Source: Leptotrichia sp. oral taxon 847
GTDB lineage: Bacteria > Fusobacteriota > Fusobacteriia > Fusobacteriales > Leptotrichiaceae
Assembly (NCBI RefSeq): GCF_001553645.1
Contig: NZ_CP014231.1
Coordinates: 682,001 to 746,000 of the forward strand
Length of the DNA: 64,000 nt
Direction: 5' to 3'
The notes under the pieces were generated by a model that was not told the origin of the DNA, did not search any database, and was given only the letters and a program-made list of their open reading frames with translations. Positions 2,621-60,597 of this stretch are shown here, piece after piece. The translations under genes and the position numbers were made by a program. Numbering within the stretch: position 1 is the stretch's first letter; every line of letters starts with the position of its first letter.

Positions 2621-3805
2621 TTATTTAGTAATAGTTGCAACTACTCCTGAAGCTACTGTTCTTCCACCTTCTCTTATAGCAAATCTCAATCCTTCTTCCA
2701 TCGCAATTGGGTGAATTAATTCCACTGTCATTTCAATGTTATCTCCTGGCATTACCATTTCTACTCCTTCTGGTAGTTTTACTTCTCCTGTAATGTCAGT
2801 CGTTCTGAAATAAAATTGTGGTTTGTATCCTGTAAAGAATGGTGTATGTCTTCCACCTTCATCTTTTGTAAGTACGTATACTTCTGATTTGAATCCTGTA
2901 TGTGGTGTGATTGTTCCTGGTTTTGCTAACACTTGTCCTCTTTCCACTTCTTCTTTCTTAGTTCCTCTTAGCAATGCTCCTATATTATCTCCAGCTTGTC
3001 CTGAATCCAATAACTTTCTGAACATTTCCACTCCTGTTACTGTAGTTTTTGAAGTCGGTTTGATTCCTACTATTTCTACTTCTTCCCCAACTTTTACTAC
3101 TCCTCTTTCTACTCTTCCTGTTACTACTGTTCCTCTTCCTGTAATTGTGAACACATCTTCAATCGGCATAAGGAATGGTTGGTCAATTGGTCTTTCTGGT
3201 GTCGGAATATATGTATCTACCGCATCCATTAATTCCATTATTTTTTCTACCCATTTTGCTTCCCCATTTAATGCTCCTAATGCTGATCCAGCTATTATTG
3301 GTACGTCATCTCCTGGGAATCCGTATTCGTTTAATAGTTCTCTTACTTCCATTTCTACCAATTCTAGTAATTCTTCGTCGTCTACCATATCAACTTTGTT
3401 TAAGAATACTACAATGTAAGGTACTCCAACCTGTCTTGCCAATAGAATATGTTCTCTTGTTTGAGGCATTGGTCCATCAGCTGCTGATACTACTAGGATT
3501 GCTCCATCCATCTGAGCTGCTCCTGTAATCATATTTTTTACATAATCCGCATGTCCTGGACAGTCTACGTGTGCGTAGTGTCTTTTTGCTGTTTCATACT
3601 CAATATGAGCTGTGTTAATTGTGATTCCTCTTTCTCTTTCTTCAGGAGCTTGGTCGATATTTTCAAAATCAACTTTTTCTGCAAGCCCTTTATCAGACAA
3701 CACTTTTGAAATTGCTGCTGTCAAAGTAGTTTTTCCGTGGTCTACATGACCAATTGTTCCTATGTTTACGTGTGGTTTACTTCTGTCAAATTTAGCTTTT
3801 GCCAT
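2621..3805 (-). CDS. tuf: Translation elongation factor Tu
   Basis: EF-Tu delivers aminoacyl-tRNA to the ribosome as a GTP complex. All G motifs are present: GHVDHGKTT (G1), the RGITI switch, DCPGH (G3), NKVD (G4) and SALGA (G5), followed by the two beta-barrel domains ending at VVATITK. At 394 residues it has the normal length. The frame is open further upstream, but [20 protein letters not shown] with an AGGAGG-like site (ATGGAGGAAAA) fixes the start at 3805. It stands alone, with its own promoter and terminator, rather than inside a visible rpsL-rpsG-fusA-tuf operon. Confidence 0.98.
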
Positions 3806-43284: not shown

Positions 43285-46200
43285 CTAAAATAATTTTCCT
43301 TGATTTTCTTTTTGTATTCCTTCCACGCATTCATAATCTTCCAGTATTTTTAATACGGTTTTATTTAACTTCGTTCTCTTCGTCAAATCTTCCAGAGACA
43401 AAAATGGATCTTTTTCTCGCTCTGATACAATTTTTTCAGCGACAGATTCGCCAAGTCCGTCCACCGCAATGAGCGGCAACTGAATTTTTTTATCTTCTGT
43501 TATCGTGAAAAGCTTTGCGTCGGATGTCAAAACATTTGGCTTTGCAAGTTCAATGTTACGATAATTCATTTCTATTAAAATTTCATACAAAAATAATTCC
43601 TGCTTTTGTTTTGCATTTAAATTTGGATTTGATTCCAGCTTCTTTCTTAAATTTTTTATTTTTTTTAGAGAAGGTGAATCTTCTTCTGTACCAGATTTTT
43701 TCTTTTCAAAAAACATCGCAGTCATTTTAAAATCTCCGACTTTTCTATTTAAAAAAGCTGTATAAAATTCCACAGGATAATGAACTTTAAAATATGCAAT
43801 TCTCACCGCCATCATAACATACGCCACAGCGTGTCCTTTTGGAAACATGTATTTTATTTTTTCACAAGAATCTATGTACCACTGCTCGACACCTTTTTCT
43901 TTCATCAATGCTGAGTACTCTTTCCATTTATCAGGATCTTTTGTAGGTCGCCCTTTTCTCACAAATTCCATAATTTTAAAAGCTAAAGATTTATCGAGTC
44001 CGTCGTCGATAAGTTTATTCATAATGTCATCTCTCACCGTTATAATCTGGCTCAATGTTGCAACTCCACTTCTTACATAATCTTGTGCATTATTTAACCA
44101 GACATCCGTTCCGTGCGAAAGTCCCGAAATTCTAACTAATTCCGCAAATGTCTTTGGTCTTGTGTCAACTAGCATTTTTTTCACAAAAGATGTACCAAAT
44201 TCTGGAATTCCTGAAGTCCCAGTTGGAGAACCTATATCATCTGGACTTACCCCAAGTGCTTCAGTGCCGCTAAAAAGGCTCATAACCCTTTTATCGTCAA
44301 GAGGAATTTTATAGATGTCCACTCCTGTCAAATCTTGTAAAATTCTAAGCGTAGTCGGATCATCATGTCCTAAAATATCCAATTTTACTAACTGTTCGTC
44401 CATCACATGATAGTCAAAATGTGTCGTTTTGAAAGTTGAATTCATGTCATTTGCAGGTCTTTGTACGGGACAAAAATCGTAAATTGACTTATCTTTTGGA
44501 ACTACTATCATTCCACCGGGATGTTGTCCAGTAGTTTTTCTAGCTCCTTCACAGCCCATCGCAAGTCTTGTTACTTCAGCCTTTCTCTCCTTGATATTTT
44601 CCGTCCCTTCACTCTCTTCCAAATATTTTTTTACATAACCAAAAGCATTTTTTTCAGCTAATGTGGAAATTGTCCCAGCACGAAATACGTTTTCAGAATT
44701 TTCAGGATATTCAGAATTTTCAGGATTCTCAAAATCTTCAAAATCTATAATTTTTTCAATATCTTCAACATTTTCAATATTTTTAAGGGCATCCGAATTA
44801 AATAACCATTCAGTATATTTGTGAATTTTCCCTTGATACTCTCCAGAAAAATTTAAATCAATATCTGGTACTTTTTCTCCATTAAATCCCATAAACACTT
44901 CAAATGGTATTGCATGTCCATCTTTTATATATTTCGTACCACATTTTGGACAATTTTTATCAGGATAGTCAACTCCGTCTCCTTCTTCATTCATAAATTC
45001 AGTATGTTTACATTTTGGACATCTGTAGTGTGGATAAAGTCCATTTACTTCAGTAATTCCCATAAGGTAAGCGACAATGGACGAACCGACTGAACCACGG
45101 GAACCAACTAAATATCCTTTTCTTACCGATTTTTTAACCAATATTTGTGCAATTAAATAAAGTACGGAAAAGCCATTTCCAATAATCGAATTTAACTCTT
45201 TCTCCAGTCTTTCTTTCAAAACTTGGTCAACATCGTTACCATAAAGCTCCTCTAATTTATCATAAGTCATTTTTCTTACTAACTCTTCAGCCCCTTTTAT
45301 CTTCGGTGGATAAAATCCTTCAGGAACCGGTCTTATTCCAGCATCAATCATATCAGCAATTTTATTTGTATTTTTGACAACAATTTCATTAGCAATTTCA
45401 TCGCCCAAATATTTAAATTCTTCAAGCATTTCTTCAGTTGTCCTAAAATATAATTCTCTATCAAAAAATTCGTATCTTGAACCATCGACAAATTTAGTTT
45501 TTCTTAAATTTCCACTTCCCAAAAGTAAAACATTTCTGTTAATTGCTTCTCTTTTGTCCAAATAATGTACATCTCCTGTAGCAACAACTATTTTTCCCAA
45601 TCTTTTCCCTAAATCATAAAAATATTTATTCATTTCTTTTATTACTTCTAAATTCTCAATTTCACTCGTATTTTTTTCTACCAGTTCATTATATGTAATT
45701 GGTGGGTGTATCTCTATATAGTCATAAAATTTTGCTTTTTCTTCAATTTCTTCTGTTTCTCCACGCAAATAAAGATTTATGAGTTCCCCTCTATTTCCAT
45801 ATATCCCAGTTGCTGAACTTGCAAGAAGTAAATTTTCCCTCATTTGTTTCAATAATGTTTTTGGAATTCGCGGTTTTCTCATCCCAAAGTAGTCAATGTG
45901 CGATTTGGAAATTAACTCATATAAATCCCTTAATCCTTTTTGATTTTTTACCAAAATCATCGTATTCAATATTTCAGCATTTTGAATATTTGGCTGAAGA
46001 TTCATATTTATATCTTTTAGTGTCAGAATTCCTTTTGTTATAATCATATTAAAAAATTTCTGAAAAACTTCAGCAGTTGCTCTTGCATCGTCAATCGCTC
46101 TGTGATGTGATTCTAATGTTATTCCAAAATATTTAGTCAAATTTGCCAGTCCAAACCTTTGTTCCTTGGTAAGAAGCGCTCTTGCAAGTGGAAGAGTGTC

Positions 46201-57400: not shown

Positions 57401-58546
57401 CTATTTATTTGATATTACTTTTTTCGCTACTTTAATTTTTTTATCAGTATATAAAACAACATCTTTTATAATATCTTTTTGAATCGCTAAGATTAACATT
57501 TCTATAAATTTAAAATCAATTTCATTATTTTTTATTGGCAAGTATATTTCTTGATTTTCGATAATATTTATATTAAAACTTGAGCTTCCCCAAGCAAACA
57601 TACTAAAAGATTTTGCCATTGCGCTCACAAAAAAATGAGAATTTAATTTATTAAACTCTTTGTATTTGGATTTTATAATTTTTATTTTATCTCCTGTAAA
57701 ATATGGTTTTTCTTGATAAAACATTGTTGCAGTATCTTGACCAAATGATATTGTATTTCCATCATTTAAAAATTTTTCATCTTCTTCTAAGTAACCTCGA
57801 ATTCCATTATTCAAAGCTGTTCTAACAACATAAGGATGTCCTTTTTCTAAAATATTAACTTTATTTGCATCAAATCTTTTTTTATAAGAATTTACTTCAA
57901 ATAAATCTCTTATTTTAAACTCTTTCCATTCAATTTCATCTTTTCTAAAAATTTCCAAAATTTTCTTCTCTTCAAAGGTTAAAACATAGTCCGAAAATCC
58001 TGTAATTACTAAATAAGCCTCCAGCTTGGATATTTGACAAGCCTCCAGCTCGGATATGAACCCTGTCATAAACTCAAAATCGATTGAGCCATCATTTTTA
58101 ATGGGTAATTGTATTTTCTCTTCCTTGACTTTTTCCCAACCAGCTTTATTAGTCCATTCGTATTTTCCATGAAGAATTTTTGAAATACTTGCAACAAAAT
58201 ACAAATATTGATTATCTGTTAGAACATTATCTGTAAATATCCATTTTATTGCATAAGCATCCTGTAAAATGGTAAATTCATTTTTCTGATAAAACGTTGC
58301 ACCCGTATTTGCTCCATTTGCTGAGATTGAAATTACATTTTTTAATATTGTTGCTCCTTCTATATTTGCATAATTATTCAATCCTTGATTTTGAATCCCT
58401 GCAGTTAATACCGGTAATGTAAAATTTTCTTTATATATACTAGATAATTCACTTGTTTTATACGGTAATCTATTTACTTTTATTTTTTCGAATAAATCTC
58501 CTATTTTAAACTTCGCCCACTTAACTTTTTCTAATTTTTTAGCCAA
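57401..58546 (-). CDS. Restriction-modification specificity (S) subunit
   Basis: A 381-residue type I-like S protein with two target-recognition half-domains, each opening with a W-K-FKI-DLFE motif (VKWAKFKIGDLFEKI and IEWKEFKIRDLFEVN), separated by a helical spacer. In the spacer an octapeptide is repeated (ISELEACQ, ISKLEAYL), encoded by a 24-bp tandem repeat at 58017-58057. The two half-domains would read the two halves of a bipartite DNA target. It starts at TTG 58546, 8 bases after the methylase/nuclease gene, and no later Met fits. Partner is the upstream gene. Confidence 0.88.
   Translation of the reverse strand: MAKKLEKVKWAKFKIGDLFEKIKVNRLPYKTSELSSIYKENFTLPVLTAGIQNQGLNNYANIEGATILKNVISISANGANTGATFYQKNEFTILQDAYAIKWIFTDNVLTDNQYLYFVASISKILHGKYEWTNKAGWEKVKEEKIQLPIKNDGSIDFEFMTGFISELEACQISKLEAYLVITGFSDYVLTFEEKKILEIFRKDEIEWKEFKIRDLFEVNSYKKRFDANKVNILEKGHPYVVRTALNNGIRGYLEEDEKFLNDGNTISFGQDTATMFYQEKPYFTGDKIKIIKSKYKEFNKLNSHFFVSAMAKSFSMFAWGSSSFNINIIENQEIYLPIKNNEIDFKFIEMLILAIQKDIIKDVVLYTDKKIKVAKKVISNK
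58017..58057 (-). repeat. 24-bp tandem repeat in the S-subunit spacer
   Basis: AAGCCTCCAGCTTGGATAT and AAGCCTCCAGCTCGGATAT are spaced 24 bases apart with one mismatch. Adding or losing one unit keeps the frame and changes the spacer by eight residues. Confidence 0.75.
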
Positions 58547-58554
58547 GTGGGTAT

Positions 58555-60597
58555 CTATTTTCCCAGTTCCTCATCTTCTTTATTTTCGTTTTTCAAAAGA
58601 TTTGATACTTCCCAAGCTAAATAATCCCGAACTGTCTTTTTAAAATCTTCCAATGTTGGTTTTGTGTCTATTGGAGCTGATTTGTTCCAATCTGTACCAC
58701 TTTCTGGATCAATAGTGTCTTCGTAGTATTCTTTTTCTGTAAAAATATTTAATTTTGATTTTCCAAAACGAACTAAATTTATTAGCTCCTCGTATCTTCC
58801 TTTTGCATTATTTGTGTCTTTTAAGTTATTTTTTGCTTTTTTACGGTTTGTTCTAGTGTAACCGTCATCACTAAAGTCTATAAATTTTACCATCTCATCT
58901 TTTTCATGCCGTTCTCCAACTTTAAAAACGTAGATATTAGTTTGAACGCTTGATTTTCCAATGAATAAATCAATTGGCATTTTTATACTTGCTAACAATG
59001 TGTTATTTTTTAATATTCTTTTATTTATTTCTTTTGCTTTTCCGCTTCCTGCTGAATTTTGAATAATAATCGCAGCATATCCTTTATTCATCATGTTTAA
59101 TGCTTTCTCAACAAAAATCATACCGTTTCCTTCTGCTGAATACGGTGGATTTAAAATAAATGCTGTTGCAGGAAATTTTTCATCTTTTTTTATAAATCCA
59201 TATTCTCCATCAAAATCTGTTAATGAATTTTTATTTAAAATATTAGAACTTCCGTCTCCCATCATAATCATATTCAGAATAGCAAGTATATAAATGCTCG
59301 GTAGCAATTCCAGTCCTAAAAGTTGCTCAGATTTTATTTTTCTTTCCTTTTCGTATATTTCTTCAGGTGAATTAAGCGTATTTTTAGCATCGTTTATCAT
59401 TTCATTCATTGCAGCAACTAAAAGACCCGCAGAGCCTGTTGCAAAGTCCCACACATACGAATCTTTATTAACTCTTGCAAGTTTTACAAGTAAATTTGCA
59501 ACATAAGCTGGTGTAAGTACAACATCATTAAGTTTATCCTGTGTAAATCCAAGCCACGAATACATTTCATTAAATAATTTTCCTGTAAAATCAGTTGTAA
59601 GCCCTATTTTATAGTAAATTCCCAAATCATCCACTATTTTTGAAAATACTCTTTTTAATTGTGTTTCTCCATTTTCTATTTTATTTAAATTTTCAGATAA
59701 AATCGTATTTTCTAAAGTTCTAATTATTAAGTTTTGCTTTTCTCTTGGCAAATTTTTCTCTTCTAAAAAAGCCCTTACTCTTCTCATTAAAATTTCGCCA
59801 TCTGTTTCACTTTTCATTGGAGATGATTTTAAGTCTTGTTTTTCTAATACTGGAACTTTTCCTGGAATACCAATTGTCGCAATAATTGAAGCTGCAACAA
59901 GATACACTCTGTCATTTTCTCCAAGACCTTTTTCATTTTGATAAATATCATTATTTAATTTTGTAAGACTGCTGTCAATTTCTCTTTCTCTTTGTTCTTT
60001 TATTTTATCCAATTCTTCCTGTGATAATTGCAAAGTTTTAACATCATGTATAAATTCGTCAAAATGTTCTTTACTTAAAAAAGAAAAATCATCATATTCC
60101 TTTACTTTCTGTCCAACTCCAAAATTGGATTCTGAAACATAATAAACTCCTATTGAGTGTTTTATTTCACCTTTGCTGTCTTTATACCCTGTCATTCCAA
60201 TAGAAATTATATCTTTATAATTTGTATAATGAAGTAATGCATTTGCATAGTGAACAGCTCCGTTTACAGCATACGAATTTATATTTTTCAAATTAGGTTC
60301 ATTATTGCTTTTTATATTTTCCACATTTCCATTTTTATCCAGTTTTTCTAATTTATCTTTGTAACCTTTATATTCAACTAATATCGGATAATTATTTAAT
60401 TCTTTATCTTGTAACAATAACTTAACATCTGGACGATTTGTACCTTTTCCACCACTTTTTGAAAAGTATTCTTGCAATGCTTTATCAATTTCATCATTTA
60501 ACTTTTCCTGTTCCAGTTTATAATCAAGATTATAAGATTTTAGCCACGAATTTGCTAAATCTGCTATATTAGGTTCTATACTTTGTGCTTTTGCCAT
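58555..60597 (-). CDS. BcgI-like restriction-modification subunit: PD-(D/E)XK nuclease plus N6-adenine methylase
   Basis: A 680-residue fusion. Residues 50-80 carry a PD-(D/E)XK motif, P56-D57 and E75-Y-K77 (NRPDVKLLL, then PILVEYKGYK), like the N-terminal nuclease of BcgI A. The gamma-type adenine methylase follows with motif I VWDFATGSAGLLVAAM and motif IV FILNPPYS. No helicase or separate R gene occurs. With the adjacent S gene this matches type IIB (BcgI) systems, which cut on both sides of the target. Size (637 residues in BcgI A) is similar. Regulation unknown. Confidence 0.83.
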   Translation of the reverse strand: MAKAQSIEPNIADLANSWLKSYNLDYKLEQEKLNDEIDKALQEYFSKSGGKGTNRPDVKLLLQDKELNNYPILVEYKGYKDKLEKLDKNGNVENIKSNNEPNLKNINSYAVNGAVHYANALLHYTNYKDIISIGMTGYKDSKGEIKHSIGVYYVSESNFGVGQKVKEYDDFSFLSKEHFDEFIHDVKTLQLSQEELDKIKEQREREIDSSLTKLNNDIYQNEKGLGENDRVYLVAASIIATIGIPGKVPVLEKQDLKSSPMKSETDGEILMRRVRAFLEEKNLPREKQNLIIRTLENTILSENLNKIENGETQLKRVFSKIVDDLGIYYKIGLTTDFTGKLFNEMYSWLGFTQDKLNDVVLTPAYVANLLVKLARVNKDSYVWDFATGSAGLLVAAMNEMINDAKNTLNSPEEIYEKERKIKSEQLLGLELLPSIYILAILNMIMMGDGSSNILNKNSLTDFDGEYGFIKKDEKFPATAFILNPPYSAEGNGMIFVEKALNMMNKGYAAIIIQNSAGSGKAKEINKRILKNNTLLASIKMPIDLFIGKSSVQTNIYVFKVGERHEKDEMVKFIDFSDDGYTRTNRKKAKNNLKDTNNAKGRYEELINLVRFGKSKLNIFTEKEYYEDTIDPESGTDWNKSAPIDTKPTLEDFKKTVRDYLAWEVSNLLKNENKEDEELGK

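Follow-up and report, generated by a model that had tools for sequence, protein, structure and literature searches.

A 24-bp repeat between the recognition domains of a BcgI-like specificity subunit in Leptotrichia and its unit number in relatives

An RM–S gene pair with a repeat between the recognition domains

The window, the whole 64-kb stretch of DNA analysed here, carries the gene of a specificity (S) subunit and that of a restriction-methylation (RM) partner side by side on the minus strand, the RM stop lying 8 bp before the S start (Table 1). The S protein matches Methylase_S of Pfam in two stretches (E 2.2e-35) and the type II specificity subunit of PADLOC, Specificity_II (E 8.6e-34). 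The RM protein matches REase_MTase_IIG (type IIG) of PADLOC across residues 1-671 (E 4.9e-243) and, in Pfam, N6_Mtase above the gathering score (2.1e-22) and VRR_NUC slightly below the cut-off (6.3e-05); its translation contains PD...EYK in the nuclease-like part and NPPY in the methyltransferase part. Searches of NCBIfam gave no match for S and a weak match only for RM, and a sequence search of solved structures returned no match for either protein.

Table 1 Features of the S and RM genes and of the repeat, in window positions
Feature	Position	Strand	Remark
S (specificity) subunit gene	57401..58546	-	381 aa, TTG start, intact open frame
S gene layout: TRD1 - linker - TRD2 - C-terminal helix	57401..58546	-	
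RM gene	58555..60597	-	680 aa, N-terminal nuclease-like part fused to N6-adenine methyltransferase
First octapeptide unit ISELEACQ	58034..58057	-	In-frame translation
Second octapeptide unit ISKLEAYL	58010..58033	-	In-frame translation
19-bp repeat arm	58015..58033	.	One mismatch to other arm, 24 bp apart
19-bp repeat arm	58039..58057	.	One mismatch to arm 58015..58033
Predicted linker helix containing both units, residues 157-181	58004..58078	-	AlphaFold2, block pLDDT about 76-93
Predicted C-terminal helix (residues 345-379), expected to pair antiparallel with linker helix	57410..57514	-	AlphaFold2

Because the partner gene encodes a fused restriction-methylation protein and has no HsdR adjacent to it, the pair is, by gene content, a BcgI-like type IIB (type IIG) arrangement and not an EcoR124I-like type I one; the comparison with EcoR124I-type enzymes drawn in an earlier note, made from the sequence alone, is not borne out. 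Nuclease and N6-adenine methyltransferase reside in one polypeptide according to PADLOC, Pfam and the motifs, the S subunit is separate, has two recognition domains (TRDs) and adjoins the RM gene, and a 24-bp unit lies between the TRDs, as in H. pylori BcgI-like S genes. The hallmarks of type IC are missing. No HsdR-like ORF that could encode the translocase was seen among the listed neighbours, and the only HSDR_N match of the genome (1938793-1939365) lies 1.0-1.2 Mb away from the S gene at 739404-740546. Tetrapeptide repeats are likewise absent, the period in the window being eight residues, with no parsed linker of the family differing by four. Type I membership was rejected on the RM fusion and the lack of an adjacent HsdR.

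The 24-bp repeat in the S gene, placed by the earlier note at 58017-58057, is confirmed: the position holds two 19-bp arms, and two 19-mers that lie no more than 60 bp apart and differ in one base at most arose in 0/1000 dinucleotide shuffles of the S gene and occur only once in the 64-kb window. As had also been proposed, the encoded octapeptides, ISELEACQ-ISKLEAYL, are of LEA type and fall between the two TRDs. They sit in what is predicted to be a helix. The claim of two 24-bp units stands for the protein, in which there are two in-frame octads with 20/24 bases identical, but not fully for the DNA, in which the array is imperfect and amounts to 1.8 copies rather than two full units, the second unit having diverged from the first in its final five bases. 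Even with the threshold set as low as possible, Tandem Repeats Finder does not report the repeat, as might be expected of a chance similarity; the shuffles and the recurrence of the same octads in relatives speak against chance, to which we give a negligible probability and which the shuffle control (0/1000) led us to reject. With the protein held fixed and synonymous codons drawn at random, the observed identity was reached in 0.6-0.8% of draws, so the likeness of the two units at the DNA level exceeds what the protein requires. The codons of residues common to both units are all identical, several of them being rare in the S gene (CTG, TCC, GAG), and the G+C content of the units is 21/48 bases versus 26% for the gene. 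Elsewhere in the window, an exact 18-bp tandem repeat of 1.9 copies (44692-44726) sits within a longer degenerate array.

Unit number in related S genes

Relatives were taken from named genomes (25 loci), plasmid and phage records, E. coli genomes and viral contigs, and further from genomes of six groups (33, 397, 140, 83, 346 and 344 searched), with at most 30 loci retained per search. Within the genus the S gene is found in the window genome only (1/13), a search of the 12 other genomes having found it in none, and within the family it has matches in 5/33 genomes. A first scan of viral contigs with the window protein gave no relative; a four-unit DNA pattern gave at least 120 matches there, was too loose and was discarded.

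A hand tally of 95 distinct parsed linkers, which contain close relatives and are therefore not independent counts, comprises 4 with one unit, 70 with two and 21 with three, with no other lengths, and linker length always steps by eight residues. Left out were minus-strand false matches (L005, L020), a duplicate (L072), a fragment with internal stops (L007), a locus with a 100-N assembly gap in its array (L006) and loci that were unparsed or did not follow the octad pattern (L088, L089, L122, L123, L125, L134, L135, L136, L144, L146, L149); others were added by eye (L084, L085, L093, L096, L098, L113, L114, L119, L121, L132, L140, L147, L270), and loci repeating an already counted gene were not recounted (e.g. 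L042, L071, L075, L077, L078, L108). The gap of L006, in Aliarcobacter, lies at 3321-3420 within an array of ELEAYHIL, suggesting a longer or mixed array. By this tally, S linkers across the whole family use the LEA octapeptide as their length module. In the 80 linkers that have two or more units, 251/312 pairs of the same residue in neighbouring units use identical codons, whereas codon use in the remainder of each gene would give 147.1 (rows not independent), an excess of the kind expected were the units copied from each other.

Whole-unit differences also separate near-isogenic genes. The S gene of PhiR12_3, used as query against 5426 E. coli genomes, has matches in 30 of them and is present in full in 20, with lengths of 1146 bp (n=17), 1145 bp (n=1) and 1170 bp (n=2); an extra unit is thus carried by 2/20 full-length alleles and the two-unit length by 18/20. 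Four of the 20 (E2855, E110019, SCU-104 and JNEC-KY173) were compared with the phage gene. E110019 has a one-base deletion, and SCU-104 and JNEC-KY173 have exactly one 24-bp unit more with 0 or 1 substitution, the SCU-104 alignment showing one 24-bp gap and 0 substitutions over 1,173 aligned bp. The RM genes of SCU-104 (three units) and E2855 (two units) are identical over 1,962 bp. Comparable pairs are L044 and L050 (1,016/1,023 ungapped bases identical, plus a 24-bp unit), L141 and L143 (687-bp block, 5 mismatches, plus 24 bp) and L009 and L111 (227-bp block, 9 mismatches, plus 24 bp). The same one-unit step is seen in L. salivarius between L034 and L035, which differ in TRD1, while L046 and L270 of E. 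coli, apparently with both TRDs in common, differ by one unit and in the number of an 8-bp repeat. These alignments place the change in unit number in relatives (E. coli and L. salivarius), the window species being known from one genome, and the E. coli pattern resembles occasional change more than rapid switching. The gain or loss of eight residues in frame, which the earlier note had envisaged, agrees with the whole 24-bp steps between relatives but less well with the imperfect copies of the window itself; the count varies across strains in E. coli and L. salivarius, and in the window's genus the 12 other genomes are without the gene.

The repeat might instead serve mainly as a crossover point for TRD shuffling between alleles, unit number being a by-product without a selected spacing role. 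E. coli alleles with different TRD1 match the query from the linker onward, starting at base 453 or 467, and other E. coli alleles have only 57-64 bp of the linker in common. The window TRD2 type (57515-57943; KRFDANKV...FGQDTATMFYQEKPYFTGDKIK) occupies the place of TRD1 in 15 of the 19 aligned relatives, a sign of domain movement, all 19 having been found by a search whose peptides favoured that type, and movement of TRDs through flanking repeats has been proposed (Furuta 2011, PMC3077401). A by-product would nevertheless sit poorly with whole in-frame units in 95/95 parsed linkers, which suggest selection on helix length or register, and the near-isogenic pairs differ by a unit without TRD exchange; we consider this explanation unlikely.

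Several S genes vary immediately beyond the linker. In BcgI-like S genes of E. coli the LEA linker is directly followed by an 8-bp repeat, CGGACTCG, with 16 copies in L046 (4073-4200) and 6 each in L076 (7317-7364) and L270 (989-1036); with 16 copies the frame is lost and S is split into two halves, and with 6 S is open. The complete stretch is present in seven E. coli genomes, in which its length ranges from 1,220 to 1,412 bp, and the repeat is likely a phase-variable switch. Glycine-codon runs, possible G tracts, come right after the linker in L013 (around 5600), L090 and L092, with two ORFs in different frames at the run of L013, and are perhaps akin to the G tract described for H. pylori (PMC3936762). 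A different tandem duplication (AYLEVSGLKNYTLTDEEE) right after the linker is followed by a frameshift in L026 (5001-5609). In L037 (2587-3585), from an L. salivarius plasmid, a frame of 333 aa runs from an apparent RM start into the second half of S, seemingly through a deletion between the RM and S genes.

Predicted linker helix and recognised gap

AlphaFold2 models, built from 20-row alignments and of modest pTM (0.60, 0.55), with TRD1 of the window protein covered by few rows, contain an unbroken linker helix of 25 residues with two units (window) and of 33 residues with three (L024, 150-182). The C-terminal helix has 35 residues in the window protein and 36 in L024. Foldseek matches of the window model include HsdS (1ydx, 5.7e-16), EcoR124I (7bst) and the type IIB enzyme BsaXI (8w0p), and the antiparallel pairing of the linker and C-terminal helices is taken from HsdS structures (PMC3874165). 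As the C-terminal helix stays at 35 or 36 residues while the linker helix grows from 25 to 33, an extra unit is predicted to lengthen one helix of the pair only, as has been described for the addition of TAEL repeats (PMC3874165).

We lean towards the reading that the octapeptide is a central length module of the BcgI-like type IIB S subunit, its units being gained and lost in frame and each shifting the recognised gap by about 2 bp. Each 24-bp unit would add eight residues to the helix separating the TRDs, and near-identical copies would permit in-frame gain or loss of units through slippage or unequal recombination, to which the exact 24-bp differences between near-isogenic relatives point. 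A change in the length of only one of the two antiparallel helices should shift and rotate the TRDs relative to one another. In type I systems, TAEL and LEAT repeats give +1 bp per four residues, from N6 to N7 on going from 2 to 3 copies of TAEL (PMC3874165) and from GACN6TGC to GACN7TGC on going from 1 to 2 copies of LEAT (PMC6789123), and by analogy one octapeptide would change the gap by about 2 bp. A change in DNA spacer matching the change in units is, on this analogy, likely.

Unit change in the window strain would be rare, because its array has only 1.8 copies and is imperfect, and the two-unit majority among linkers (70/95) likewise argues for rare change in the window species. This majority, the two-unit length of 18/20 full-length E. 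coli alleles and the divergence of the window copies, which differ in 1/19 bases and in the final five of the second unit, would also fit a window organism in which the linker is simply fixed at two units, the most frequent state in the family, and does not switch. Such fixity is conceivable, though we doubt it: residues common to the two window units have the same codons, some of them rare, a pattern that recent copying would leave (P 0.006-0.008), and within the window's family L027 has three units and L028 two (one genome each).

Literature searches on type IIB enzymes yielded no measurement of recognised gap against unit number. Some published findings weigh against the length-module reading. 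In Furuta 2014, no half-motif could be assigned to H. pylori type IIG TRDs (PMC3983042), and gonococcal NgoAVIII, also BcgI-like, is reported to show no methylation (PMC6789123). A BsaXI half-subunit with CR1 shortened by up to 32 residues is described as keeping N5 (PMC9159934); both helices would be shortened alike there, because a half-S supplies CR1 on both sides. The BsaXI CR1 deletions were reported to have only partial activity (PMC9159934), which raises the alternative that the main effect of an extra unit is to reduce or abolish activity, so that the enzyme is switched on or off instead of acquiring a new gap. Likely on/off repeats do occur in S genes of the family, in the 8-bp repeat right after the E. 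coli linker and in the G tract of the H. pylori S gene (PMC3936762). S genes with one and three units are nonetheless open frames in several phyla, among them some with old, diverged three-unit linkers such as L127 and L128, and we hold this alternative to be quite improbable.

Beyond the length-module reading favoured above, we suggest only tentatively that BcgI-like type IIB systems of several phyla generally use the LEA octapeptide as a slippage-prone ruler, with about two bp of gap per unit. If so, the distance between the two cuts would change along with the gap, and a single in-frame 24-bp event would renew both the methylome and the restriction barrier with the TRDs untouched. Were the gap set by the linker helix, one slippage event would alter which DNA a cell accepts. 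SCU-104 and either E2855 or PhiR12_3 provide natural alleles of an RM–S pair that differ by little more than one octapeptide, and this near-isogeny makes directly testable whether type IIB enzymes measure the gap by the linker helix.

Comparison with known systems

Among type I systems, the TAEL repeats of EcoR124I and EcoR124II (type IC) are in-frame repeats in the inter-TRD helix that set the gap (PMC3874165), as is proposed for the window, but they have four residues per unit and act with separate HsdR and HsdM, in contrast to the eight residues and RM fusion of the window. The LEAT repeat of NgoAV is also of LEA type, lies in the same region and varies among strains, with +1 bp per four residues (PMC6789123); unlike the window, NgoAV is type I with four residues per unit. 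BsaXI (8w0p) is a type IIB enzyme of (RM)2S composition whose TRD1-CR1-TRD2-CR2 architecture resembles that of the window S protein (PMC11997821), with 11% identity to the window model in the Foldseek match; the term 'repeat' is absent from the text of that paper.

The closest precedent is the H. pylori type IIG/BcgI-like S gene, for which Furuta 2011 describes 0-4 copies of a 24-bp repeat (PMC3077401). It agrees with the window in class (S plus a separate RM), in the inter-TRD place and in the 24-bp period, and its unit, which translates to QCRLAELE, is the kind of octad seen in the window, although the sequence of the unit is not the same. For H. pylori, copy number has been determined in many strains, for the window in one genome. 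The window is another case of this H. pylori-type repeat, a kind already known since its publication in 2011. To this our comparison of sequences adds that linker length changes in eight-residue quanta across the family, that these quanta recur in several phyla and that near-isogenic pairs exist in nature.
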